This document shows positions 11,512 to 38,982 of a stretch of 43,626 nt of DNA, piece by piece (positions within the stretch are counted from its first letter, which is position 1; every line of letters begins with the position of its first letter). The position numbers were made by a program, and so were the translations under genes. The stretch covers positions 1 to 43,626 of the forward strand of contig JAUSII010000031.1 in NCBI GenBank assembly GCA_030648035.1, given 5' to 3'. The DNA is from Deltaproteobacteria bacterium (GTDB lineage: Bacteria; UBA10199; SPLOWO2-01-44-7). Below the pieces are notes generated by a model. It was not told the origin of the DNA. It saw nothing but the letters and a program-made list of their open reading frames with translations, and made no database searches.

Positions 11512-11546
11512 CGGGCGAGTTATTATCAACACGCTGGGGGAGTGTC

Positions 11547-11606
11547 AAATTCAAAGATAGAGCCAATGATAAATCGACTGTGCGGTGAGGACCCGGCGCA
11601 CATAAT
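11547..11606. repeat. Left island boundary: 60-bp direct repeat (attL-like)
   Basis: This 60-bp stretch is repeated in the same orientation at 26525-26584 with one mismatch (C at 11593, G at 26571). It corresponds to the last 18 codons and stop of the lytic transglycosylase gene plus four downstream bases. Here it has no gene attached: the codons for SIYHWLYL and the stop are present, but the frame upstream is island sequence. This is the pattern left when an element integrates site-specifically into the 3' end of a gene and restores the gene on its other side. Confidence 0.92.
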
Positions 11607-12325
11607 TAGGGTTGCATAATCTCTATCATCGCCTGGGGAATAAACTGCAACGCCATCTCAATTTTTTGATCCAACTTCTCCCTAATTGTCCTACTTGGAG
11701 TAGGTCCATCGGGTTTATAACAACCCACGCTTCCATCTTCTTGAAGACAGAGGATCCCCATGGACATAAGTGCAAGTGATGATCTGATCAGCCTATAAAG
11801 TTCTTTATCAAATTCCAGAGCCTGCAATTTTCGTTCGAAGAGCATCTTGTTAATTTCAGCGGCATTTGCCTTTAAAATATGTTTGATTATCAGGATCATG
11901 GTTTCATCACTCAAATTGATGAAATTTTCATAAAATTCATGGCCAAATTTGTTGACAGCGCCATTTTTTTCACACTGATCAAATGTAAATTCGCTGAGAG
12001 ATTTTGACGTCGTCTTTGCTCCCATTGGTTGACTCCTGTTGCCTACCCTTTTTATTTCAAAACGCCCACCAATAGCACCAGCAATCCCCAAAAGAAATCC
12101 CAATGAAACTAAAACCAAGCCCATCTTTGCTAAACACCTATTCTCCTCCAAGCTCTCTTTAAGAAACTGATTGCTTTTATAGTAAGTGCCAGAGATTTGA
12201 TTAATTGTTTCGTCAGATGGCAGAGCACCGAAAATTAAAATACCAGAACCAGCAAAATTTAAAACTAAGCCAACAATTAAAAATCCAAAAGAATATTTTT
12301 GAAAAAAATTTCTAAACATACACAT
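11606..12325 (-). CDS. Unknown membrane protein with two transmembrane helices
   Basis: A 239-residue protein with two hydrophobic segments, about residues 13-34 (FGFLIVGLVLNFAGSGILIF) and 67-88 (AKMGLVLVSLGFLLGIAGAI), followed by a soluble, mostly helical C-terminal region of about 150 residues. No catalytic motif is recognised. The first ATG (12325) has TGGAG upstream; a second ATG at 12319 is also possible. The start codons lie in the tail of a res gene remnant, and the stop codon uses the last base of the left island repeat, so this is the outermost island gene. It could be a membrane partner of the defence genes, but nothing in the sequence shows that. Confidence 0.6.
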   Translation of the reverse strand: MCMFRNFFQKYSFGFLIVGLVLNFAGSGILIFGALPSDETINQISGTYYKSNQFLKESLEENRCLAKMGLVLVSLGFLLGIAGAIGGRFEIKRVGNRSQPMGAKTTSKSLSEFTFDQCEKNGAVNKFGHEFYENFINLSDETMILIIKHILKANAAEINKMLFERKLQALEFDKELYRLIRSSLALMSMGILCLQEDGSVGCYKPDGPTPSRTIREKLDQKIEMALQFIPQAMIEIMQP

Positions 12326-12372
12326 ACTGCTCCATCAAATGTTTAAAACCCATATTCAACTGCACTTTGCCC
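12314..12372 (-). pseudogene. Remnant of the 3' end of a second type III res gene
   Basis: Reading the minus strand, 12372-12314 encodes GKVQLNMGFKHLMEQYVYV and then TAG. The intact Res protein at 14120-16801 ends GKVQLNMGFEHLMKQFEYLD. The DNA matches over about 47 bp (14133-14180 against 12325-12372) with about four differences, including a perfect 21-base stretch. The match stops at the downstream end of the res reading frame in both copies. This is the tail of a diverged homologous res gene, or an old duplication. It implies that the block 12373-14119 was inserted or exchanged next to a res gene. The downstream membrane-protein start codon is embedded in this remnant. Confidence 0.75.
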
Positions 12373-14119: not shown

Positions 14120-16801
14120 TTAATCCAAATATTCAAACTGCTTCATCAAATGCTCAAACCCCATATTCAACTGCACTTTGCCGTGGGGGATTAAAATATA
14201 TTTCCAGGGTTTGCCGCCGTTTTGGGCTGTGAACTCTGAAGCGTGTTTGCAATACCAGAGGGCGGCTTTGGCTTTTTCTTGGGCTCCTCGGGCTTCCAGA
14301 TCGATTTCTCTCTTGGTCTCCACCATGTAGATGGCGTCTTTTGCCTCCACGATAAAATCGGGCTGATATCGACTTTCGTTTCTATTCCAATAGATGCTGA
14401 ATTGGCTTTGGGCTGGGCGTAGCCAACGGACAACAGTTTCTTTATCGTCTTCCAGAATAATGGCGAAGTCCTTCTCTGTTTTTGAATGAAATTTATAGGA
14501 GGTATGACAGGCTTTTTTGAATCCGGTAAATACTTTGCTGTGGATGGCATTGGTTGGCTCTATGGTTTCTTTAAAATCATGAATTTTGTCTTTCGTGTAT
14601 TTGGAATGGTTATGTTCCTCGATTTTGGTGAATGGAAGGACAACCGGCTTTTCAAACGCCGGGGCCTCGCAATAAAAATGCTCCATCATTTGCAAATAGA
14701 TGAGCCTTGCAATGTCTCTTCGATGAACAAAAAGCACATCGGAAATTTCAACCTCATTCAAATAGGACTTCATTTTTGCCAAAACCTGCCTTGTCAACTT
14801 CACCAACAGGTCTGGCTGATCGTCATAATCAATTTCGGGAAAATTTATAAGCTCACCGACAATGGTATTTTCCGGAAACTGAATCAGAATGCGACCCTTG
14901 CCTGTAATCACATCATCGGCAATGTCCAAATCTCTAAGCAGTCTCACAACAATCTCTTCGGATGGCGGCGGGTAGTTGATGTTTTTCACATCCAGATCAA
15001 AGTCGTGGAAACCCGATTTCACATTTTCGGATTGTAAAATAGAAATTCTTGGGATTTCAATAACCTGATTGGCAAAAGAGTCTACCGTTTCATCATAACG
15101 CTTTTCAACTTCCTGAAGGACATCCCCTGTAAAAAGATCCCCTTGAGGGGCTCTTTTCATTTTCTGTTTGATTTGTTCGATCACGATTGCCTTGATTTCG
15201 GGCCGTTTAAGTTCCTGAATGTTTTTTACCTTGGCATTAAATTCTGGCAAAATTTCAGTTATGGCGCGTTTAATTTCAAGTTGGGTTTTTGCTTCCTGTC
15301 TTTTTTGAACATCTTCAATCGCGGCAACTTTTTGTTCCTCGACTTTGAAGGCCTCATTAAAAGTGGTGTTTGAAGTGATAACTTCCTTTGGTTGGCTCAA
15401 GTCCTGCTCATCAATGATGATAATATTTTCTTTGCGGATGATGGAACCGGGTTTGTTGGCCTCATCGATAATTTCCTGAAACCGGTCATGGGCGACAATC
15501 GTCAGTTTGTCGACTTTCAACTCGCCCGTCCGCTTGCCGTAGGGAAGACGCAATCCACGCCCAATGGTCTGCTCACGCAATGTCATCGATGCCGCTGTCC
15601 GCAGGGGAATAATGGTATAGAGATTGGTGACATCCCAACCTTCTTTGAGCATGTTCACATGGATAACAATTTCAATCCGGTTGTTGGGGTCTTCCAGCGT
15701 CAGCAGTTGGGCGATATTTTCTTCTTTTTCGCCACCTCTTTGATTTGAGTGAATCTCCATCACCTTGTCGGCATATCTTCCATCGAAGAAAGATTGCGAC
15801 ATCATCAGCTCTTTCAGTTGGGCGGCGTGGTCGGTATCTTTGGCAACCACCAACACAAATGGTTTTACTTGTGCCACTCTGTTGTCGCGCGCATAAATTT
15901 CCAGGGCGACTTTTGTATCCTCATGAATACGAATACCGTCTTCCAATTTGACCCGATCCAAATCTTCTGCAGAATAAGTTTTTGGATCAAAGTTTTTGCG
16001 GGTGGCAACGGCGGGCTCTTTCACAAATCCATCCCGAATGGCTTTGGCAAGGGAATATTCATAAACCACATTCTTGAATTTAATTGTTCCGCTTGCCCGC
16101 TCCACTTGCGGTGTGGCGGTTAACTCAAGGCCCAAAATGGGATTGAGCTCATTGATAACTTGTAACCCTCTGTCAGCCCGATAGTGATGGGATTCATCCA
16201 TTAACAGGACGAGATCATCCAGCTCTGAAAGATAATTGAAATAAGATTCGCCAATATATTCGGAGAGGCGTTTAATTTTTGGTTCGGCGCCCCCTCTGGC
16301 CTCTGCATTGATTTTTGCGATATTGAAAACGTTGACAATTATTTCGTCCAAATACGATGTCTGTTTTGGATCGATTTGTTGGTAATTATCTCCGGTAATG
16401 ACTCTGGGCCTCTGTTGTGAAAATGCCCCAATGCCGCGAAAAACATATTTGGGGTGCGCCGGATTTCCAAAATCTTCAATGAGTTTGTTGTAGATGGTGA
16501 GATTGGGAGCAAGGACAAAGAAATTTTTAATCCCCTTGGCAAGATAAAGATAGGCGATGAATGCGCCCATGAGTCGAGTCTTGCCAACACCTGTCGCCAA
16601 AGCAAAACAAAGGGAGGTAAAGTTTCTCTCAAAGTCGGTGCATGTAGGATATTCCCCACGGACAATTGCAAGCTCCTGTTCAAGTGGAGCATTTTTCTGA
16701 AGCGATAATTTTTCACAAAGCGCGGCAAGAATATCAAGACTCTCTACCTGCGGCCGTCTCAAGCTCAATCGATTCTTTATTTGGTTCGCTATCTGTTTCA
16801 T
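14120..16801 (-). CDS. res: Type III restriction endonuclease, Res subunit
   Basis: An 893-residue ATP-dependent translocase and nuclease that acts with Mod on unmodified head-to-head sites. Seen are Walker A LATGVGKTRL near residues 69-77, Walker B/DEAH-like LLMDESHHYRADRG, motif III ELTATPQVE, and motifs V-VI GWDVTNLYTIIPLRTAAS with EQTIGRGLRLPYGKR. Near the C-terminus is a PD-(D/E)xK nuclease core, YQPDFIVEAKDAIYMVETKR. The ATG at 16799-16801 is chosen over the frame start at 16831: it lies 1 bp after the mod stop and gives MKQIANQIKNRLSLRRPQ as in homologues. All motifs look intact. Confidence 0.93.
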   Translation of the reverse strand: MKQIANQIKNRLSLRRPQVESLDILAALCEKLSLQKNAPLEQELAIVRGEYPTCTDFERNFTSLCFALATGVGKTRLMGAFIAYLYLAKGIKNFFVLAPNLTIYNKLIEDFGNPAHPKYVFRGIGAFSQQRPRVITGDNYQQIDPKQTSYLDEIIVNVFNIAKINAEARGGAEPKIKRLSEYIGESYFNYLSELDDLVLLMDESHHYRADRGLQVINELNPILGLELTATPQVERASGTIKFKNVVYEYSLAKAIRDGFVKEPAVATRKNFDPKTYSAEDLDRVKLEDGIRIHEDTKVALEIYARDNRVAQVKPFVLVVAKDTDHAAQLKELMMSQSFFDGRYADKVMEIHSNQRGGEKEENIAQLLTLEDPNNRIEIVIHVNMLKEGWDVTNLYTIIPLRTAASMTLREQTIGRGLRLPYGKRTGELKVDKLTIVAHDRFQEIIDEANKPGSIIRKENIIIIDEQDLSQPKEVITSNTTFNEAFKVEEQKVAAIEDVQKRQEAKTQLEIKRAITEILPEFNAKVKNIQELKRPEIKAIVIEQIKQKMKRAPQGDLFTGDVLQEVEKRYDETVDSFANQVIEIPRISILQSENVKSGFHDFDLDVKNINYPPPSEEIVVRLLRDLDIADDVITGKGRILIQFPENTIVGELINFPEIDYDDQPDLLVKLTRQVLAKMKSYLNEVEISDVLFVHRRDIARLIYLQMMEHFYCEAPAFEKPVVLPFTKIEEHNHSKYTKDKIHDFKETIEPTNAIHSKVFTGFKKACHTSYKFHSKTEKDFAIILEDDKETVVRWLRPAQSQFSIYWNRNESRYQPDFIVEAKDAIYMVETKREIDLEARGAQEKAKAALWYCKHASEFTAQNGGKPWKYILIPHGKVQLNMGFEHLMKQFEYLD

Positions 16802-26479: not shown

Positions 26480-26524
26480 AATATCTGGCTTTAAATACTA
26501 TTTTTGTAAGAATATCAATGAGTT

Positions 26525-26584
26525 AAATTCAAAGATAGAGCCAATGATAAATCGACTGTGCGGTGAGGACGCGGCGCACATAAT
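26525..26584. repeat. Right island boundary: 60-bp direct repeat (attR-like)
   Basis: This is the second copy of the 60-bp repeat at 11547-11606. Here it is continuous with the lytic transglycosylase gene and supplies its last 18 codons and stop, encoding VLTAQSIYHWLYL. Because the gene reads through without disruption, the island restored the 3' end on integration. Confidence 0.92.
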
Positions 26585-27863
26585 CTCTTGTCTCATCAAA
26601 CGGAATCTCTTCCACAAACATTTCTGGCGATTCGTCTTGTCTCAAACTCAACCATCTGGCTACCGCTTCTTCACCCGCGTTGTAAGCGGCGACAGAATAG
26701 GCGGTCTCATTTTTGAATAATTTTTGAAGAAAGTGAAGATAGAAAGCACCAAGCCGGATGTTGACATCGGGCTTCAGAATTTCTGGCAGATGAAAATGTT
26801 TCAGGCCGGAACTCTCCGCCACAACCAGAGCGGTTTGCGGCATCATCTGCATCAAGCCAATCGCACCCGAAGAAGAAACCGCATTTTCACGAAATCGCGA
26901 TTCCTGCCAGATGACGGCAAAAACGAGATAGGGATCGAGTTTTCTTTTTTTGCTCTCTCTCTCGACAAAAGTTTTGTAACTGCGGGGATATTTTTCTTCC
27001 CACTTCCAGCGTTCCTTCCCCTCTTCCAGGGGTGCCGGAGAGTTCAAAGAGGGAAAATTTTTCAAAACCAGAAACCCGTAATAGGTGGTGGCATATTGAT
27101 CGACCAATTTTTGTCGCAATTTTTCTGCCGCATCATGGCGATTCAGTTTTTCCAGAACAACCGAGCGCCAGTAGAGAGACTGTGGAGAAGAAATTTTGTG
27201 CCAACTTCGGAGTGCCTTTTCCAAATGACCCAGTCTGAAATCGCACCAGCCGCGCCACCAGGCGGTCTCGGGTCCGCTGAAATGGGCCAGCAATCTTAGA
27301 GACTTCTCATAATCCTTTGCTTCCAGTGCTGTCTTGAAGGCACGCTTCGCCATTTTTTGCGCCACTTTTTTGGATGTGGCGCTGTGCATGAGCTCTTCAT
27401 AAATTTTTATCGATTCGGGATAGCGCTTCAGGCGGCTTAAACCAGACGCCACTTTTAACAAACTTTCCTCCCGCATTTCGGGGTCCTCTGTTTTCTCGAT
27501 TATTTTCTGGAACAGATCGTTCGCCTCTTCATATTTTTTGAGCCCCATCAGCGCCCTGGCTTCGAGAAACATCACCCGATCTTCCTCTTGGGAATAGGAC
27601 TGCAAAGCCTTCCAGGCTTTTTCAAACCAGCTGAAGTCGATCAGGGTTTCGATATCTTCCAGATTGGCGGGAGACATCTGTTCAGCCTCCAGAATTTTGG
27701 GCAAAGGATCGGCATGGGCGAAAAAAGGGGTGATCAAAATTGTCATTGCGAGCGCCAGCGAAACAATCCCGATTTTTCCGGGATCGCCACGTCGCCCTTT
27801 GGGCTCCTCGCGATGACAATGGGATTTAAAACGATGTGCCAAACTGCAGAATGAGCGTTCCAT
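26529..27863 (-). CDS. slt: Soluble lytic murein transglycosylase (Slt family)
   Basis: Cleaves the MurNAc-GlcNAc bond of peptidoglycan, forming 1,6-anhydro ends, in the periplasm. The C-terminal catalytic domain shows AVIWQESRFRENAVSSSGAI with the catalytic Glu, GLMQMMPQTA and AYNAGEEAVARW. The preceding 250 residues are TPR-like helices (for example DLFQKIIEKTEDPEMREESL). The start is uncertain. The frame opens at ATG 27863, overlapping the upstream gene by 38 bp, and the signal-like stretch IGIVSLALAMTILITPFFAHA then lies at about residues 31-51. An ATG at 27746 would leave only a short hydrophobic leader. Either way the start region is made of repeat DNA (27739-27820). Confidence 0.9.
   Translation of the reverse strand: MERSFCSLAHRFKSHCHREEPKGRRGDPGKIGIVSLALAMTILITPFFAHADPLPKILEAEQMSPANLEDIETLIDFSWFEKAWKALQSYSQEEDRVMFLEARALMGLKKYEEANDLFQKIIEKTEDPEMREESLLKVASGLSRLKRYPESIKIYEELMHSATSKKVAQKMAKRAFKTALEAKDYEKSLRLLAHFSGPETAWWRGWCDFRLGHLEKALRSWHKISSPQSLYWRSVVLEKLNRHDAAEKLRQKLVDQYATTYYGFLVLKNFPSLNSPAPLEEGKERWKWEEKYPRSYKTFVERESKKRKLDPYLVFAVIWQESRFRENAVSSSGAIGLMQMMPQTALVVAESSGLKHFHLPEILKPDVNIRLGAFYLHFLQKLFKNETAYSVAAYNAGEEAVARWLSLRQDESPEMFVEEIPFDETRDYVRRVLTAQSIYHWLYL
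27739..27820. repeat. 82-bp interspersed palindromic repeat
   Basis: The ends are inverted repeats, ATTGTCATTGCGAG on the left and the complement of ATTGTCATCGCGAG on the right. The internal parts GAAACAATCCCGAT and CGGGATCGCCACGTCG are also near complementary, so the whole unit can fold into one long hairpin. Units of this form, which read in translation as HCHREEPKGR...GIVSLALAMT, are common dispersed repeats in many environmental bacterial genomes. It lies 5 bp after the stop of the upstream gene and covers the slt start region. It could also act as an intergenic attenuating hairpin within the transcript. Confidence 0.8.
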
Positions 27864-30842: not shown

Positions 30843-30876
30843 ATTACTTTTTGAGCGGGGGCAAGGGGGGATTAAA
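30843..30876. repeat. Degenerate half copy of the G-rich palindromic repeat
   Basis: The sequence CTTTTTGAGCGGGGGCAAGG then GGGATTAAA resembles one inner arm of the element at 572-607 (TTTGAAAAAGGGGGG TCAAGGGGGATTTT). Only one arm is present. It lies between the 1000-residue gene and the end of the 285-residue paralogue, and it supplies the latter's TAA stop. Confidence 0.5.
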
Positions 30877-31729
30877 GACAATTCCTGCCAAAACACTTTG
30901 GTTCTTTTTCAGGCTTTTCCGGTTTTTCGCAATATCCCGATTCATTGCGAACGATGGTGTCTCCATAATAATAAGTCGTTCCAGTCTGAGGTGTCTCATT
31001 GGAACGGCAGCTGGGCCCCTCAACCACCTGTGTTCTACATTGTCCCAATTCCACACAAGCTTTGGCCCCTTGCCATAATCCAAACATGGCTGAAATCATT
31101 TCATCGGATTTTTTCTGACGCAATTGGGGACTGCTCAAAACAGCAATGGAACGTATGTATTTTTCTTGAAGACCAACCAAATCTCCAACATCCCATCCCT
31201 GATGAAAAATCCACCAACCTCCTTCATCATGACTTTTTGCCTTGGCAACCAGGGCATCGGAAAACTGAATGGCGGCATCGGTTTTTACGCCGGCCATCTG
31301 TCGACCGAGCGGTTCCACGCACTCCGTCTGAAAATTACTGACGGCTTGGCATTCATAAATCTGTTTCGCGCCATCAAAAAAAGGATCGACCGAGTCATTC
31401 AAAGGGGTTTTCAATTCGCCTTTGCCCGCCGTCACAGCCACCAAAAAACGACCGACATTTACAGGAAGGACATCCTCTGTCTTGGTGTTTCCGTCATAGA
31501 CACTTCCATCTTCGGCAAAACGGAGAGACCCCTGTATTCCGCCCCCATCCTTCAAGGTATAAGGGACCAGAACAACGCCATCCCCCACATTCCCCTGATA
31601 AACATCCACAGAGCCGCTTAGGCCATACTGATTAAAAACCTTTTTTGCTTGAGTGTAAGCTTGGCTACCATAAGCCGCATTCACTCCCCAGTAAAATTTC
31701 GTAAGATCCAGTTTTGCAGTTCCTGTCAT
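30872..31729 (-). CDS. Unknown protein, tandem paralogue A
   Basis: A 285-residue member of a three-gene family (30872-33627). Shared landmarks are a start like MTGTAKLDLTKFYWGVNAAY, VDVYQGN, RFLVAVTAGKGELKTPL, the cysteine pair in QIYECQAVSNFQTECVEP, and ACVELGQCRTQV. The C-terminus is cysteine-rich with a short acidic/Pro-Glu repeat (EKPEKPEKEP). There is no signal peptide or membrane segment, although six or more cysteines would suit an oxidising compartment. A strong Shine-Dalgarno GGAGGCATT precedes the ATG. It is the last gene of the C-B-A operon. Its stop lies in a degenerate repeat arm, so the original C-terminus may have been altered. Function unknown. Confidence 0.8.
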   Translation of the reverse strand: MTGTAKLDLTKFYWGVNAAYGSQAYTQAKKVFNQYGLSGSVDVYQGNVGDGVVLVPYTLKDGGGIQGSLRFAEDGSVYDGNTKTEDVLPVNVGRFLVAVTAGKGELKTPLNDSVDPFFDGAKQIYECQAVSNFQTECVEPLGRQMAGVKTDAAIQFSDALVAKAKSHDEGGWWIFHQGWDVGDLVGLQEKYIRSIAVLSSPQLRQKKSDEMISAMFGLWQGAKACVELGQCRTQVVEGPSCRSNETPQTGTTYYYGDTIVRNESGYCEKPEKPEKEPKCFGRNCL

Positions 31730-31757: not shown

Positions 31758-32699
31758 CTAATGACTCTTGTACCGGGGCCACCTCTCATTTATATTCCTC
31801 AATCTTCTATCATAAGAATAAGGACCATTTTCATTGCTACAATAATCACTGCCCCAGCTCCAGCAGGCCGTAAGATGATACGTTGTCGTTGATTTTTCTG
31901 GTTCTTCTTCACAAAAAGCCGCCGACGTAAAAACAACCTGCTCTTTATAGAGGTAGCTATCTTCACTATGAACAATTTCCCCTTCGTCGCAATCGGGTGA
32001 AGACCCCTCTTTGATCGTGCACTGTCCCATCACAACACAAGCATCCACGCCTTCTGATTCTGCCAATATTTCTGGAATCATTTTATCCCTTACCATTGCA
32101 AGACGCTGTTCCGACCCTTCAAGGGAAGTCTTGTCTATAAGGTCAACCTGTCTCCGATATTTTTTATAAATCGAAATGGCTTCGCCCAATTCCGGTTTTT
32201 CTTTAAAACCAAAGAATCTGTCCACTTTATCTTCATTGGATCTGGCTTCTTTTTTTGCATCCAGTTTAATTCTTCTCACCATGGAGGCGGAAAAAAGGAG
32301 CAAGTCATCCGCCTCTGCGTTATTTCTTTCTGCAAGTTCTGCTCGTGCCGGTTTCAGGCACTCTTGCTCAAAATTATCTTTGACTCGGCACTGATAAATT
32401 TGGCGGGCGATTTCGAAAGAATCAGCATCGGCTTTTTTCAAAGGATTTTTTAATTCCGATTTTCCTGCCGTCAAGGCAACCAAAAATCGGTCAACGGTAG
32501 CCGGCAGACTTCCTTGCAAATTTATTTTGCTGTCGGAAAGAAGAACAATGCCGTCATTGGGCTCTCCCTGATAAACATCGACCCTCTCTTGCAAGCCATT
32601 CTCTTCAAAAACTTTCTTTGTCTGAAGATAGGCATTGTCTTTGTAGACTGTTTTGATTGCGGCGTAGAATTTTTTGATATCCAGATGATTGTTGCTCAT
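31758..32699 (-). CDS. Unknown protein, tandem paralogue B
   Basis: A 313-residue member of the three-gene family: LDIKKFYAAIKTVYKDNAY, RVDVYQGEPNDGIVLL, RFLVALTAGKSELKNPL, QIYQCRVKDNFEQECLKP and ACVVMGQCTIKE. Compared with A and C it lacks the segment containing RFAEDGSV and has a distinct tail with several Cys, Trp and Arg residues (HLTACWSWGSDYCSNENG). The ATG is 1 bp after the stop of paralogue C, and the Shine-Dalgarno GAGGAGATAA overlaps that stop, so translation is coupled. No signal peptide is seen. Function unknown. Confidence 0.8.
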   Translation of the reverse strand: MSNNHLDIKKFYAAIKTVYKDNAYLQTKKVFEENGLQERVDVYQGEPNDGIVLLSDSKINLQGSLPATVDRFLVALTAGKSELKNPLKKADADSFEIARQIYQCRVKDNFEQECLKPARAELAERNNAEADDLLLFSASMVRRIKLDAKKEARSNEDKVDRFFGFKEKPELGEAISIYKKYRRQVDLIDKTSLEGSEQRLAMVRDKMIPEILAESEGVDACVVMGQCTIKEGSSPDCDEGEIVHSEDSYLYKEQVVFTSAAFCEEEPEKSTTTYHLTACWSWGSDYCSNENGPYSYDRRLRNINERWPRYKSH

Positions 32700-32700
32700 A

Positions 32701-33627
32701 TTATCTCCTCATTACAGCCCTGCAATGGGCTGGATGTTTCCCGCACCAGTCATCAGAGTCTTTTTCTTTCTTCTCTTCGATCTTCTTGCATTCTCCACTC
32801 CCATTTGCATAAACTTTTGCGCCCTTATAAAAATAGGTTGTCTTGCTATCGGCTTTATAGCCATCGTCGCAATCGGGCGTCTCCACCTCTGTTGTACATT
32901 GCTTCAGATCAACACACTCGGGGCCGTAGCCATCTGAAATCATTTCTTGAAACATTTTTTCTGCGGTGGCCAACCGTCGCACAGATCCATCCAAAGAATC
33001 AGCCTCAATTTTTTCCACACGATCTGAAAACTTATTATAATCATTTCGTATATCGCTTGCGTCAGAACCACTGCCGAAATTATTTTTAAACCAACCCTTA
33101 TCTTGTTTTTCAGCAACTTCCATTAATTGATCGGCCAAGGTGAGCACCGCTTCCGATTTTTCATTGTTTCTGCGACGTTTTGCTTCGGCAATTTTTTGTT
33201 TGCCAGGCTCCACACACTCTGCCTGAAAATTCTTTTCAAATTGGCATTCATAAATTTGCATCGCCCCTTTAAGAAGAACCGCCTGATCCTCATCCATCGG
33301 GGCAGTTAACCCCTTTTCTCCCGCAACGGCGGCGACCAGAAATTGGCCGACAGCGGCCGGCAATTCATCCTGATTTTTACCCAATCCACCCCGAACGCTC
33401 CCATCCTCTGAAAACCGGAGAAGGCCAAGGACAGATTGATCTCCCGCTTTGTATACATAAGGAATCAGAATAGTGCTGTTGCCGGCAGACTCCTGATAAA
33501 CATCAACGGTTTTTTGAAGACCATACCGACCAAAAACCTTGTAGGCCTGTGCAAGAGCCTCATTGCCATAGGCCACTTTCACTCCCCAAGAAAACCGGGT
33601 GAGATTTAGTTTTGCAGTTTCTGTCAT
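32701..33627 (-). CDS. Unknown protein, tandem paralogue C
   Basis: A 308-residue member of the three-gene family, closest to A: MTETAKLNLTRFSWGVKVAY, VDVYQESAG, LLRFSEDGSVRGG, QFLVAAVAGEKGLTAPM, QIYECQFEKNFQAECVEP and ECVDLKQCTTEVETPDCDDG. The start at ATG 33625-33627 is set by homology with A and by the Shine-Dalgarno AAGGAGGCATT; the open frame extends six codons further. It is the first gene of the C-B-A operon and is preceded by an ECF-type promoter-like element shared with the sigma factor gene. No signal peptide is seen. Function unknown. Confidence 0.8.
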   Translation of the reverse strand: MTETAKLNLTRFSWGVKVAYGNEALAQAYKVFGRYGLQKTVDVYQESAGNSTILIPYVYKAGDQSVLGLLRFSEDGSVRGGLGKNQDELPAAVGQFLVAAVAGEKGLTAPMDEDQAVLLKGAMQIYECQFEKNFQAECVEPGKQKIAEAKRRRNNEKSEAVLTLADQLMEVAEKQDKGWFKNNFGSGSDASDIRNDYNKFSDRVEKIEADSLDGSVRRLATAEKMFQEMISDGYGPECVDLKQCTTEVETPDCDDGYKADSKTTYFYKGAKVYANGSGECKKIEEKKEKDSDDWCGKHPAHCRAVMRR

Positions 33628-33661
33628 AATGCCTCCTTGGTTCACGTTTGATTCTTATGGA

Positions 33662-33688
33662 TGTAACGCTTGAAAAAGGAAAAAGTTC
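33662..33688 (-). promoter_or_regulatory. ECF-type promoter-like element before the paralogue operon
   Basis: On the minus strand, CGAACTTTTTCC is followed by GCGTTACA. GAAC and GCGTTACA have the same spacing (15 bases between them) as the element upstream of the ECF sigma gene at 38901-38927, and the bases just after (a CATA about two bases on) also match. GAAC in the -35 position is typical of ECF sigma promoters. The element lies 35 bases upstream of the paralogue C start codon. Confidence 0.65.
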
Positions 33689-33718
33689 GGTCGGATATTA
33701 AAAAATCTTATTTTTGTT

Positions 33719-34885
33719 TCAATGTCCTGAAGCATAGGCCCTCACCTCTTCTGTGGATGGCAAACAGGCTTTAAAGGCACTCTGTTGAATCGGTTTGCAA
33801 ATATAACCCTCCTCTGTCCGACAATCCGAATCTTGCTCGCAGGTGACAACGCAAAATCCAAAATTATAATCAGAAATGTGTGGATAATAAACGGTGTCGA
33901 CTCCCAAGGCGCTCTGTTTTACAGAAACGGAGGGACGGTTATCGGCACCCAACGGACAACTCTCTGAAACCCGATATCCCCATTCACTGCAATAGCCCCC
34001 TGTGTAATCAGAAAAATCGATGCAAAAACCCGTGGCGCAATCAGAGCTTTCGACAGGGCCATCCGATGCGAAAGGTCCATCGAGATGACAAGAATCCCCC
34101 GTTACTCCGCCACAGACCCGATCTTCATCGGTCATGCCGTCGCAGTCATCATCTATTCGATCGCATATTTCGGTTCCCGGCCCAAGATATCTTGCTGTCG
34201 TCTCCACCCAAGCTCCATTTTGACATTCTCCCCACCCCGGTCTGCAAAAACTGACCCATTTGGTTTCCGGCGGAAAAGGATAAATTTCACCGGTCAAGGG
34301 CATTCCATCATCCCCTTCATCAGTCATGCCATCGCAGTCATTGTCTTTACTGTCGCAAATTTCTTCAGAGCCACCGTATTCATTAAAATAAATCCACTCC
34401 CAAGCAAAAGAGCAATAACCATAGACATGGCATTCTCCAACCGGATGAAGTCCATCAGGGTTGTCATCTTCTACAATTTTATACCTATCATTCTCATTAA
34501 GCAGACAAGACGATTCCCAAAAACCGTCCGCACCGCAATATTGCTTGCCCAGATCACAAGCGCCGCAGGAACGCATCTCCCCCACATGACATTTTATTCT
34601 TTCTGCGGTCACCACATCGGGATGAGCGATTGCACTGGCGGTTTTTGGAACACCGCTGGATGTTTGTGAAAAATTTTTATCATCATCCACGGACTGTTCA
34701 CCCCCACAACCCAACGCTTTGGTGGCCAGCAGAAAAAATGGATTGAATGTGTTGATTTGTAAAATCGTTTTGCCGAGCCAGAGAGCGGCATTTTGAAAAG
34801 GAGTGTCAGCCACGGCCATGATGTCTTGGGGCGGAGCATCGGATTTTGAGAAAGAGACAGATCTATTTTGAACGGGATTTATCAT
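33719..34885 (-). CDS. Cysteine-rich MopE-like metal-binding protein
   Basis: A 388-residue protein with two copies of the putative metal-binding motif known from MopE-like proteins: EICDSKDNDCDGMTDEGDDG and EICDRIDDDCDGMTDEDRVC. It also carries many further cysteines (for example VGEMRSCGACDLGKQYCGAD and DSCHLDGPFASDGPVESSDC). The N-terminus is unusual: about 48 polar residues precede a hydrophobic stretch FNPFFLLATKALGCGG, which looks like a lipobox region but is internal. It overlaps the upstream gene by 4 bp (ATGA), so the two are coupled. MopE-type repeats bind metal or calcium in surface proteins of many Deltaproteobacteria; the role here is unknown. Confidence 0.82.
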   Translation of the reverse strand: MINPVQNRSVSFSKSDAPPQDIMAVADTPFQNAALWLGKTILQINTFNPFFLLATKALGCGGEQSVDDDKNFSQTSSGVPKTASAIAHPDVVTAERIKCHVGEMRSCGACDLGKQYCGADGFWESSCLLNENDRYKIVEDDNPDGLHPVGECHVYGYCSFAWEWIYFNEYGGSEEICDSKDNDCDGMTDEGDDGMPLTGEIYPFPPETKWVSFCRPGWGECQNGAWVETTARYLGPGTEICDRIDDDCDGMTDEDRVCGGVTGDSCHLDGPFASDGPVESSDCATGFCIDFSDYTGGYCSEWGYRVSESCPLGADNRPSVSVKQSALGVDTVYYPHISDYNFGFCVVTCEQDSDCRTEEGYICKPIQQSAFKACLPSTEEVRAYASGH

Positions 34886-35610
34886 CTTAAGTCACAGGTG
34901 GACGCCTCATCTGCACAAGGACTTTCGTATACCGCCCAACAGAGATCGGGCGGCTGTCTAAGCCAAACTTGGATGGTCCAGTTTTCTTGGTTGGGGATGA
35001 TGCGAATAAATTTGTCGGAGTTAAAGGTTGTCCACTTATCTTTATTGGAATTAGGATAGATGTAATCATTACTACTATGGCCATTGTATCCAACTCTTTC
35101 CTGCGGCCACTCATTATTTCCAAGTAAGAAAACTTCGTCTTGATAGTGAACACTCTCATAACCGAGTAAAAATGTCATAAGTTTATCGTGATCAAATTCA
35201 TCGCCATACCCATACATGTTCAAATAAACACAAGTTGACATTTTTGCTGTGAGACTTGCATTTTTATGACAGTCATCATTTTGATCCACCACTCCCGTCT
35301 TCTTGCAAAACACAATCCCCTCTGGCCCTGCAGGAGATGGCGGAGGCGGTGGTGGTGGCGCAACCTGCGGCGACCCCCCATCATTTAAAAATGGTTCAGG
35401 AGCTTCCATGCAACCGCCCAGGCTCAAGGGAAGGAGAAAAAGCGATAAAAGTCCTCCGATGAGAACTTCTCCTACCGATTTTTTTTCTGCATCGTCAGGA
35501 TGATACGCATCTATAGGACTCTTATCAGTAACACGCTCTCCCCGTGCATGGTCATAAGTACCGACCACCCGCCCATGTGAATATATTGAAACATTTTTGA
35601 CGTCGCTCAT
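34882..35610 (-). CDS. Unknown protein with internal lipobox-like site
   Basis: A 242-residue protein. Residues 1-48 are polar (MSDVKNVSIYSHGRVVGTYD). They are followed by a hydrophobic helix and lipobox-like end, GGLLSLFLLPLSLGGC (Cys at about residue 67), then a Pro-rich spacer with seven to eight prolines and a cysteine-containing C-terminal domain (FLLGYESVHYQDEVFLLG, WTIQVWLRQPPDLCWAVY). This matches the layout of the neighbouring MopE-like protein. If the internal site is processed, the product is a lipoprotein with an unusually long leader; otherwise it is a single-pass membrane protein. It starts 10 bp after the barrel-like gene. Family not recognised. Confidence 0.75.
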   Translation of the reverse strand: MSDVKNVSIYSHGRVVGTYDHARGERVTDKSPIDAYHPDDAEKKSVGEVLIGGLLSLFLLPLSLGGCMEAPEPFLNDGGSPQVAPPPPPPPSPAGPEGIVFCKKTGVVDQNDDCHKNASLTAKMSTCVYLNMYGYGDEFDHDKLMTFLLGYESVHYQDEVFLLGNNEWPQERVGYNGHSSNDYIYPNSNKDKWTTFNSDKFIRIIPNQENWTIQVWLRQPPDLCWAVYESPCADEASTCDLR

Positions 35611-35620
35611 TTTTCACCTC

Positions 35621-37204
35621 CTAAAATACGGCCGATGGCATAAAGCCGAGTCCCACTGTCCCGCCATACTCCATGGCATTGTCCGGCAGTAGAACGTCGC
35701 GATCTTTTTGCGATGACCAAAGATTTCTAAATCGTCCTTCGATATAAAACTCCATAGCCCTCCCTAGCGGGTGATGATAACTTCCCGTCACACCCGCTTC
35801 GGTCTTTTGCCACAACGGGTAATAATCGGCATATCCACGATAAACAAGCGCACCAAGAAAGCCCCTCTGTTCACCGAATAGTTGGGCAGTCAGTTTTGTT
35901 TGAAAATGATTGTCTATATGATCGGAGTCAGGATCAAATGAAACACCAGATGCGCCTGTATCATGAGGGAACAATTTATGATCTTCTCTTTTACAATTAT
36001 GTGAAACCTGACTACAGAACTCCGAGCCTTTGTGTGAAGGATAAAGATTAACACCGGAGAATTCTGTGTTCAGACCGAACATCGTGTAACTTGAGAGGAT
36101 GTAAGCCATGTCGCTTGTATCCAATACGCGATCCGAAACCGTTACCGGCGTCCCTTGAAATTGCCAATTAATACCCGTATGCACGTTCATGGGAACGAAG
36201 ATCCATGGATTTGAATTTTTCCACCAGAGGATATCTTCCTTGACCAAAGAAGTTCCAATTTCAAAAAAATTACGCTCAAAAAAGGGTATCTGCCATTCAA
36301 GGTCAAAAAGGGTTAGTTGTGTGTTATCTCCGACAATAACACTGTCTTGGGCGAATACATTATTATTTACAGCAAACCCTCTCTTTTTTTGATCCCACAA
36401 TGTGAGATCCAAAAGAGTCCCTCTAAAAAGAACATTGCTATCTTTTAAACGAGTCAGCCCCGGTTCGGTGGTCAGTGCCAGCCTCATTCCCTTCCGCCAT
36501 CCCCTATCAATGGTGGCATCATGCGACCCAGCGTAAGAGGCTGGTATCGTGTGTTCTCCCAGATTCCATTCTTTGAAGGCATCTTTAAAAAGGGTGTAGC
36601 GTTTAGAATAATCCAGCCCGAGTCTGAAAGCGAATTTTCCCCAAACGGTGAGAGATTCTCTCTCTTCGTGGAGCTCTTCAATTTTTTTTAATCTATCAAG
36701 GGCTTCGGGAATCCCTTTTCCAAGTCCAGTTGGTTTGTAGGTGGGGTGGTAGGTGGGAACGAGTTCGGCAGGCATATTAATTTTTCTTTGTTCTTTGCCC
36801 CCTTCCTGTTCTTCAGATTTTGCAGGTTCTTCTTCGGTAGACTCTACTCCTAATACACATTTTTTATATCCCTCATAATCTAGGGCTTTGACCATGTATT
36901 GTTGTTCGCATTTGCCCGCAGTTGTTTTGTAGTTGGGGCCCATCACAACTATTCCTTGTTCATTGCCCTCTTCCTGTCCTGCAGGTTCTTCTTCATTACT
37001 AAGCTCGTCAGGCACGCTCAAACCCAGCTCCGAGGCACATGTTCTGGCCCCGCTTAGCGGCATGACGGATCCACATTTTTCTTGGATTTGATCGAGCACT
37101 TCTTGGCCAAGCATTACATTTTCAGGGTTTTCTGCGCATTTTTTTATCAATTCTCCCTGATCCTTCACCCGGTATATCGACTTACAAATTCGGTTCAGTG
37201 TCAT
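35621..37204 (-). CDS. Unknown protein with cysteine-rich N-terminus and barrel-like C-terminus
   Basis: A 527-residue protein from ATG 37202-37204 with GGGAGGCATCT upstream. Residues 1-120 contain seven cysteines and are helical (RICKSIYRVKDQGELIKKCA, EVLDQIQEKCGSVMP). An acidic, Glu/Gln-rich linker follows. From about residue 190 the sequence shows alternating hydrophobic strands with aromatic girdles (GLDYSKRYTLFKDAF, LEWQIPFFERNFFEIG, YIEGRFRNLWSS) and ends GTVGLGFMPSAVF, with the C-terminal Phe typical of outer-membrane barrels. No N-terminal signal peptide is visible, which is at odds with a barrel. It is first in a three-gene operon with the two internal-lipobox proteins. Confidence 0.75.
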   Translation of the reverse strand: MTLNRICKSIYRVKDQGELIKKCAENPENVMLGQEVLDQIQEKCGSVMPLSGARTCASELGLSVPDELSNEEEPAGQEEGNEQGIVVMGPNYKTTAGKCEQQYMVKALDYEGYKKCVLGVESTEEEPAKSEEQEGGKEQRKINMPAELVPTYHPTYKPTGLGKGIPEALDRLKKIEELHEERESLTVWGKFAFRLGLDYSKRYTLFKDAFKEWNLGEHTIPASYAGSHDATIDRGWRKGMRLALTTEPGLTRLKDSNVLFRGTLLDLTLWDQKKRGFAVNNNVFAQDSVIVGDNTQLTLFDLEWQIPFFERNFFEIGTSLVKEDILWWKNSNPWIFVPMNVHTGINWQFQGTPVTVSDRVLDTSDMAYILSSYTMFGLNTEFSGVNLYPSHKGSEFCSQVSHNCKREDHKLFPHDTGASGVSFDPDSDHIDNHFQTKLTAQLFGEQRGFLGALVYRGYADYYPLWQKTEAGVTGSYHHPLGRAMEFYIEGRFRNLWSSQKDRDVLLPDNAMEYGGTVGLGFMPSAVF

Positions 37205-37218
37205 AGATGCCTCCCAAT

Positions 37219-37233
37219 CTATACAAAATTCAT
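37219..37233 (-). promoter_or_regulatory. Four-codon leader ORF with a strong ribosome-binding site
   Basis: On the minus strand, GGGGGAGGAGGTGGC is followed directly by ATG AAT TTT GTA TAG, encoding MNFV. This ends 14 bases upstream of the start codon of the 527-residue gene, which has its own weaker GGGAGGCATCT. It may be a chance ATG, a leader peptide or a standby ribosome site. Confidence 0.35.
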
Positions 37234-37274
37234 GCCACCTCCTCCCCCAAGAAAAGTGTGTTAAATAAAAATTA

Positions 37275-37301
37275 CTGTCTCAAAATTAACAAGCTGTCTC
37301 A
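37275..37301. promoter_or_regulatory. Pair of direct octamers in the upstream region of the barrel-like gene
   Basis: CTGTCTCA occurs at 37275-37282 and again at 37294-37301, 19 bp apart, or close to two helical turns, inside an AT-rich stretch. This is a possible regulator site for the 35621-37204 operon. The ECF-type element seen for the paralogue operon is not present here. Confidence 0.3.
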
Positions 37302-37313
37302 CTTATCGAACAC

Positions 37314-38093
37314 TTAAAACCGATCGATATAAACAAACAACTGCTCCGATAATTTTTTAATCTCTTGGCTGTATTGTTCGAAATCTTTGTCCAGATCAAA
37401 CAGATCGGCGTGTACGGCATCCAGTTGTTGGTCACTTGCCATCGCGTATTTTTCTTCTTCTTGCCGATAGGCCATCATTTGCTGGTTTGAGACCCCCAGA
37501 TTTTTTCTTTTTCCGTCAATGCCCGCCATCTGCCGGTCGAATGCCACCTTTAAATTATTAAGTAACGTCATTCTCTGCTGAACCAGGGCATTGAACGCAT
37601 TAACATCGGCTTCCTTGTATTTTTTGTTACTTATTTTTTTGGAAATACTGGCCAACTTTTCATTGAGAGAGTCGTTCAAAAGACATTCATATTGTTTCTG
37701 CCGCTGTCTGTATTTGTAATCGATTTTTTTTGCATGTCTGTCTTCCAGGGTCTGTTCATATATTTGCGATGCCTGTTCCATCTGCCTTTGCAGATTTTTT
37801 CTCTGATTGCCGAAATCGACATATTTCAGCCACAAGGCCTCGCTATCTTTGGAGGCTGCGGCCAGGATTTGTTCTTCGGTATCGGCCATTTTTCTTTCCG
37901 CTTCGTTATCTTGAATACGAAAATCAATCAGTTTTTGGCGCAATTCCACGTTTTTTCTTCTGGACGCAATGTCGTAGACAATGCGTTCCTTCCACAAAAC
38001 ATTTGATTCTTCACACGCTGGTGGCGTCGCCCACGCCTCATTAATGAATACAATGAGACAGACAGCGATCACCATAAGACCAAATTTTTTCAT
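37314..38093 (-). CDS. Secreted coiled-coil protein of the sigma factor operon
   Basis: A 259-residue protein from ATG 38091-38093, with GGAGGGACATT upstream; the open frame continues to 38144 but lacks a good start. Signal peptide MKKFGLMVIAVCLIVFINEA ends AWA before TPP. The mature part is almost entirely Lys/Glu/Gln-rich coiled coil (LRQKLIDFRIQDNEAERKMA, QRQKQYECLLNDSLNEKLAS) with two conserved-looking cysteines. It is probably periplasmic. It overlaps the end of the anti-sigma-like gene by 53 bp and is the third gene of the sigma operon, so it could sense or transmit an envelope signal; that is inference. Confidence 0.8.
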   Translation of the reverse strand: MKKFGLMVIAVCLIVFINEAWATPPACEESNVLWKERIVYDIASRRKNVELRQKLIDFRIQDNEAERKMADTEEQILAAASKDSEALWLKYVDFGNQRKNLQRQMEQASQIYEQTLEDRHAKKIDYKYRQRQKQYECLLNDSLNEKLASISKKISNKKYKEADVNAFNALVQQRMTLLNNLKVAFDRQMAGIDGKRKNLGVSNQQMMAYRQEEEKYAMASDQQLDAVHADLFDLDKDFEQYSQEIKKLSEQLFVYIDRF

Positions 38094-38394
38094 AATGTCC
38101 CTCCTCACCCAAGATATCCGTTTCATTTTGAGCCATCGACACATTGCCTGTGCTGTTGGTGATTTCTTCCATCAACATGAATCGAGCGGCCAAGACTTCC
38201 TGTTCAAGAGAAGGTCTGCCGATCAAAAAAACCAGCGCCATCATCGCGGCAAAAACAACTCCACCTCTCACAAGCTGCTTTTTGCGAAGTCTCTTTTTAT
38301 GGAACTTCCCGAACGCCCTGCCCAGCAGGGCACTTTGTCTCTCTTCGTCAAGCTCCGGCACTTTCCATGCCGGAAATTTAAAAGAATCATTCAT
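38041..38394 (-). CDS. Anti-sigma-factor-like single-pass membrane protein
   Basis: A 117-residue protein encoded directly after the ECF sigma gene, overlapping it by 8 bp. The N-terminal 43 residues are charged and cytosolic (VPELDEERQSALLGRAFGKF, then KKRLRKKQLVRG). One transmembrane helix follows at about 44-58 (GGVVFAAMMALVFLIG), then a short periplasmic tail with two cysteines. Size, topology and position fit an anti-sigma factor. No zinc HxxxCxxC (ZAS) motif is seen, so it is not the classic zinc-binding type. The role is inferred from context. Confidence 0.65.
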   Translation of the reverse strand: MNDSFKFPAWKVPELDEERQSALLGRAFGKFHKKRLRKKQLVRGGVVFAAMMALVFLIGRPSLEQEVLAARFMLMEEITNSTGNVSMAQNETDILGEEGHYEKIWSYGDRCLSHCIH

Positions 38395-38884
38395 AGGTCT
38401 CCCCCAATATTTTTTTCATCTTCTTTTTGGCTTCATTCAGACGCGATCTCACCGTCCCGATGTTGATGTTCAACGCATCGGCTATCTCTTGATATGAGAG
38501 CTCTTGATAAACCTGCATAATCAAAACCGATCTGTATTTATGATCCAACTGATCTATGGCTTTTTTGGCCCACCCTCCCTCCTGGTCATTTTCAAGCGAA
38601 ACTCCCGGTGTAACACCCGCTTCAAAGGTATTTTTATTCTCCATCAAAAAGAAGGACCTTATTTTTCTTTTCCTTAAGTGTGAAACGGCACAGTTCGTTG
38701 CCACACGATAAAGCCATGGCCGCCAGAGAAACAATTCGCTGTTATTTTTTTCGATATGCTCCATAAGCTTCACAAACACATCACTCAAAATATCTTCCGC
38801 CTCGGCGGAGTTGAAAGTGTAGCGGCACAAATAACTGAACAGCTCATTTGAGTGCTTTTTGAATAGGGTATCCACACTTTCCAT
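38387..38884 (-). CDS. ECF (sigma-70 family) RNA polymerase sigma factor
   Basis: A 165-residue extracytoplasmic-function sigma factor. Region 2 is at the N-terminus (LFSYLCRYTFNSAEAEDILS, DVFVKLMEH; core binding and -10 recognition, with RPWLYRVATNCAVSHLRKRK). Region 4 is near the C-terminus (LSYQEIADALNINIGTVRSR, helix-turn-helix for the -35 box). It starts at ATG 38882-38884 with AGGAT upstream. The first gene of the sigma/anti-sigma/coiled-coil operon, it has an ECF-like promoter element 17 bp upstream, suggesting autoregulation. Confidence 0.93.
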   Translation of the reverse strand: MESVDTLFKKHSNELFSYLCRYTFNSAEAEDILSDVFVKLMEHIEKNNSELFLWRPWLYRVATNCAVSHLRKRKIRSFFLMENKNTFEAGVTPGVSLENDQEGGWAKKAIDQLDHKYRSVLIMQVYQELSYQEIADALNINIGTVRSRLNEAKKKMKKILGETYE

Positions 38885-38900
38885 TTTTGAATCCTATGAG

Positions 38901-38927
38901 TGTAACGCGCGAGCGGGAATAAAGTTC
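38901..38927 (-). promoter_or_regulatory. ECF-type promoter-like element before the sigma factor gene
   Basis: On the minus strand, CGAACTTTATTCCC is followed by GCGTTACA, with 15 bases between GAAC and GCGTTACA. The same two boxes with identical spacing stand upstream of paralogue C (33662-33688). The element begins 17 bp from the sigma start codon, which would give a very short leader. This is the expected pattern for an autoregulated ECF sigma. Confidence 0.65.
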
Positions 38928-38982
38928 GAATTGAACGTTATTTATTTGGAAGTTATAACTTTTGGAGATCAATAAGGAAAGT

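Follow-up and report, generated by a model that had tools for sequence, protein, structure and literature searches.

The hallmarks listed for ECF sigma factors are an AAC motif at -35, a CGT motif at -10, a co-transcribed anti-sigma factor and positive autoregulation (PMC8103513). In the CnrYXH system of Cupriavidus metallidurans, CnrH is the sigma factor, CnrY a short membrane anti-sigma factor and CnrX a periplasmic sensor, and CnrY is believed to release CnrH once CnrX has bound metal in the periplasm (PMC4598750). The locus described here lies in a 43,626-nucleotide stretch of a deltaproteobacterial genome (contig JAUSII010000031.1), analysed as a whole and called the window below. It resembles autoregulated ECF systems, such as those of RpoE in E. 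coli and SigW in B. subtilis, in a sigma factor made of sigma2 and sigma4, in AAC and CGT promoter boxes, in a promoter before the sigma gene and in a membrane protein gene after it. Unlike in these systems, the sigma factor is no more than ~34% identical to any ECF factor compared, the regulon is apparently only a local cluster, the anti-sigma factor is not recognisable by sequence and the targets are uncharacterised.

CnrYXH is the nearest working analogue, since it also combines an ECF sigma factor with a short single-pass membrane protein and a helical periplasmic protein. However, CnrH is a weaker match to our sigma factor than several other ECF factors, no sequence link to CnrY or CnrX was found, and there is no sign of metal sensing. 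The coiled-coil protein of the locus matches no Pfam or NCBIfam family, sensor families included, and so does not qualify as a CnrX-type periplasmic metal sensor; we do not claim membership of this system. The circuit is a new instance of a textbook kind, and its novelty is the uncharacterised paralogue family that it contains. The locus links a locally expanded family of uncharacterised proteins to a switch of the envelope-stress type, and it yields a sharp regulon prediction, namely one sigma factor and ~1-2 operons in a genome in which one ECF factor was found.

The ECF sigma factor and its operon partners

The 165-aa product of 38387..38884 (minus strand) is a bona fide ECF sigma factor. 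It consists of sigma2 and sigma4 only, with PF04542 at residues 7-74 and PF08281 at residues 108-156, both above cut-off, and the linker of fewer than 50 residues places it with ECF group IV. TIGR02937 (sigma70-ECF) scores 87.7 bits against a cut-off of 42.9. Its best structural matches are SigW, SigE and SigH, with CnrH lower (4cxf, E 1.4e-5). Four proteins with sigma region 2 were found in the genome: this ECF factor, RpoD, RpoH and a FliA/WhiG-like factor. In the family models RpoH scored above the cut-off of the sigma-32 subfamily, and the FliA/WhiG-like factor scored below its own. A protein search with the sigma factor in its own genome returned only itself, which makes it the only ECF factor found, in an assembly that is 96% complete and from which a second one may therefore have been missed. 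Among 60 related genomes no orthologue was found beyond ~34% identity, and a species-wide scan gave remote matches only. Footprinting through sigma orthologues was dropped because none was close enough.

The two genes downstream encode the presumed partners of the sigma factor. The first (38041..38394, minus strand) shares 8 nt with the sigma gene. Its 117-aa product has a single hydrophobic segment and from its position and sequence is presumed to be the membrane anti-sigma factor; it matches no family in Pfam or NCBIfam, including the anti-sigma families. The second (37314..38093, minus strand) encodes the 259-aa coiled-coil protein, which carries a signal peptide and is presumed from its context to be a periplasmic partner or sensor. 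Since neither protein matches a family, both presumed roles rest on context. In some relatives (loci L036 and L043) the genes after a remote ECF gene likewise encode a membrane protein and then a small protein that is exported, so the layout of the sigma operon is not unusual.

A two-box element before the sigma gene and paralogue C

The element GAAC-N15-GCGTTACA, or in its longer form GAACTTT-N12-GCGTTACA, occurs on the minus strand at 38901-38927 and at 33662-33688 with identical spacing. The 27-mers, GAACTTTATTCCCGCTCGCGCGTTACA before the sigma gene and GAACTTTTTCCTTTTTCAAGCGTTACA before paralogue C, were both recovered where the first-pass annotation had placed them, and its claim of the same boxes at the same spacing before these two genes is confirmed. 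The base preceding each 27-mer is also the same, a C, which extends the sites to CGAACTTTATTCCCGCTCGCGCGTTACA (38901-38928) and CGAACTTTTTCCTTTTTCAAGCGTTACA (33662-33689). Both elements are oriented toward the adjacent downstream gene: the first lies in a 98-base gap, 16 bases from the ATG of the sigma gene (38884), and the second in a 91-base gap, 34 bases from the ATG of paralogue C (33627).

In the sigma-gene promoter, the putative -35 GAAC (38924..38927, minus strand, part of CGAACTTT) is assigned by exact match and spacing and corresponds to the canonical ECF AAC box (PMC8103513), and the putative -10 box GCGTTACA (38901..38908, minus strand) has its CGTT core at 38904-38907, 16 bases from GAAC. 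In the promoter of paralogue C, the -35 GAAC (33685..33688, minus strand, again part of CGAACTTT) and the -10 GCGTTACA (33662..33669, minus strand) are exact matches. Thus both sites have AAC and CGT boxes in the arrangement GAAC-N16-CGTT, the form of group IV ECF promoters, with the same 16-base gap between GAAC and CGTT. Of 28 remote ECF genes, 3 had GAAC-N15-17-CGT in their upstream region, against 1 in the control, which provides no real support.

From the form and position of the two sites, we consider it very probable that both are promoters of the ECF sigma factor encoded at 38387-38884, one serving autoregulation and the other the C-B-A operon. Because this is the sole ECF factor found in the genome, we infer, as a strong assignment, that it is the one that reads the element. 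An envelope signal would free the sigma factor from its membrane-bound anti-sigma partner, with the coiled-coil third protein perhaps relaying the signal. The freed sigma factor would bind GAAC (-35) and CGTT (-10), 16 bases apart, and would transcribe its own operon, giving positive feedback, together with the C-B-A operon. The small regulon predicted earlier, made up of the sigma operon and C-B-A, is supported by the ECF form of the boxes, by the single ECF factor found and by the only other gene-proximal copy being the one at C, although its extent may be larger than two operons. As is usual for ECF promoters, transcription could begin at any point ~2-8 bases past GCGTTACA, which would make the leader ~9-14 bases long at the sigma gene and ~26-32 at C. 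A start 6-8 bases after GCGTTACA, as first proposed, lies within this range but would place the start of the sigma transcript inside the gene's own AGGA.

Intervening genes and the extent of the regulon

Three genes, all on the minus strand, separate the two promoters. The first encodes a 527-aa protein with a possible beta-barrel C-terminus and no family match (35621..37204), the second a 242-aa protein with an internal hydrophobic stretch followed by Cys (34882..35610), and the third a 388-aa protein with MopE-type metal-binding motifs (PF11617; 33719..34885). The regulon may exceed two operons and reach up to the whole nine-gene stretch. In that arrangement the sigma promoter would read all nine genes as one long unit, within which the C promoter would only boost transcription, a possibility to which we give somewhat less than an even chance. 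All nine genes share a strand and either overlap or are separated by short gaps (~110 and 91 bases). Consensus scans found no terminator-like site on the minus strand in either of the two gaps between the sigma operon and C, so transcription from the sigma promoter could continue through the three intervening genes, and the gap before 37204 contains neither an ECF element nor, in the same kind of scan, a sigma-70-like site. But consensus scans are weak, and the lineage's own terminator or housekeeping promoter may escape them; moreover, the C promoter is immediately preceded by a sigma-70-like site (33695-33722) that matches 9 of 12 positions.

The two proteins encoded within 33719-35610 both begin with a soluble N-terminus of ~50 residues, followed by a hydrophobic stretch that ends in Cys (ALGCGG and LSLGGC). 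This layout is unusual and lipoprotein-like. A protein of comparable layout (L085:3558-4253) adjoins the homologue of the paralogue family in genome G039.

A shared leader block downstream of the boxes

Compared in fixed register, the two sites agree at 8/8 and 8/8 positions in the boxes and at 11 of the 16 bases just 3' of the -10 box (binomial p ~5e-4), whereas the spacer (4/12) and the upstream sequence (15/49) are both at chance level. The further matches around the boxes that the first-pass annotation reported therefore exist downstream, but not in the spacer or upstream. The likeness is concentrated in the first ~13 bases past the -10 box (CATARGAWTCAAA), and the combination GCGTTACA-NN-CATARGAWTCAAA occurs genome-wide only in these two copies, even with 3 mismatches allowed (control 0). 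At the sigma gene, the block shared with the C promoter (CATAGGATTCAAA, 38886..38898, minus strand) holds the probable ribosome-binding AGGA. At C, the block shared with the sigma promoter (CATAAGAATCAAA, 33647..33659, minus strand) is probably not the ribosome-binding site, because the candidate for that gene, AAGGAGG, lies further downstream. In the fixed register the sigma ATG stands opposite an in-frame GTG of C, located 18 bases upstream of its ATG start.

Because the leader is common to both sites, one promoter is perhaps a copy of the other. The comparison suggests that the sigma promoter was copied together with its leader in front of C, apparently in that direction; if so, the locus would be a clear, small case of the birth of a regulon by promoter duplication. 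A recently duplicated leader could also carry a different signal, such as a binding site for a repressor or an activator, or else a housekeeping promoter, that the sigma factor does not recognise. This would agree with a likeness that continues beyond the -10 box into the leader, and that the sigma factor recognises the sites is itself a prediction. Yet we regard it as unlikely, since outside the boxes only the short leader is alike; with the spacer and upstream sequence at chance, what has been retained is precisely the two-box ECF form with its 16-base gap, and the element shows no palindrome.

Rarity of the element in the genome

Recognition by the ECF sigma factor, our preferred reading, also agrees with the distribution of the element, for which reversed patterns served as controls for the counts. 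GAACTTT-N10-16-CGTTACA has 3 exact matches in the 2.39-Mb genome, namely the two window sites and a copy on another contig (C132:20811-20837(+), equivalent to L003:1501-1527), which lies antisense in the early coding sequence of a gene for a signal-peptide protein and lacks both the preceding C and the downstream block. Base counts predict ~0.005 such intragenic exact copies, so this one was unlikely by chance a priori; it is either a chance occurrence or an antisense promoter, and it leaves a small loose end. The earlier statement that there is no third copy is therefore correct for gene starts but not genome-wide, and the random copies away from gene starts that could have spoken against the regulon amount to this single exact one rather than many.

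Looser patterns gave no excess over the controls. With up to 2 mismatches there were 8 matches against 6, and all of those beyond the two window sites were intragenic or overlapped a start codon, as does one on contig C40 at the start of a greA-like gene on the opposite strand. GAAC-N16-CGTTA gave 7 matches against 20 and GAACT-N14-GCGTTA, with one mismatch allowed, 18 against 57. For GAACTT-N13-15-CGTT there were 16 matches against 31; 13 of the 16 lay inside ORFs and one lay outside ORFs, where a search downstream of it found no gene. The two window sites alone directly preceded gene starts. The intragenic third copy means that exact copies without promoter function may exist, but a chance likeness of two unrelated upstream regions is highly improbable, as the two-box pattern was found in none of 100 dinucleotide shuffles of the window and, in its exact form, in none of 45 other genomes of the class, and each window copy reads along the coding strand and is no more than 35 bases from a start codon, in one case that of the sigma gene itself.

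The paralogue family

Paralogue C (308 aa; 32701..33627), B (313 aa, 34% identical to C; 31758..32699) and A (285 aa, 42% identical to C; 30872..31729), all on the minus strand, are related proteins with Cys-rich tails. No known domain was found in them with Pfam or NCBIfam, and the predicted fold of C is of low confidence (mean pLDDT 58), with no PDB match at E<=0.001. A fourth, isolated paralogue is present on contig C11 of the same genome (L081:5947-6972) beside a patatin-like gene, and homologues occur in G003 and G004, which belong to the same family of genomes, and more remotely in G024 and G039. The ECF element is absent before the fourth paralogue and before the G003 and G004 homologues, and no sigma homologue is detectable in G003 or G004. 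The link between the sigma factor and the family is therefore lineage-specific, as far as sampled. Tentatively, and with rather more doubt than confidence, we propose that a lineage-specific ECF factor drives a newly expanded Cys-rich family without a recognisable fold, and that copying of the sigma promoter and leader before this family would have recruited a private regulon absent from the sigma-less relatives.

The palindrome ARACA-N3-TGTCT, noticed by eye in the regions that precede the fourth paralogue and the homologues in G003 and G004, was considered as a candidate signal and rejected because its genome count (21 against 22 in the control) is at control level and its sites are mostly intragenic. 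The sites upstream of L081:5947, L082:5775 and L083:5835 are possibly due to chance and constitute a weak lead. A similar sequence, GAGACAGCTTGTT, precedes window position 37204.

A restriction island elsewhere in the window

Two 63-base direct repeats with 97% identity (window 11544-11606 and 26522-26584) flank a type III restriction-modification pair and PDC-S46, DUF2130, AlbA/Schlafen-type and DrmD-like helicase genes. A lytic transglycosylase gene (26529-27863) overlaps at its 3' end with the right-hand copy, an arrangement that resembles an integration site at which the end of a gene was duplicated. Within the island, a 54-base direct repeat (87%) is found at window 12318-12371 and 14129-14182. 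A 239-aa gene has one copy at its start, and the type III restriction gene has the other close to its 3' end, which suggests a partial gene duplication.
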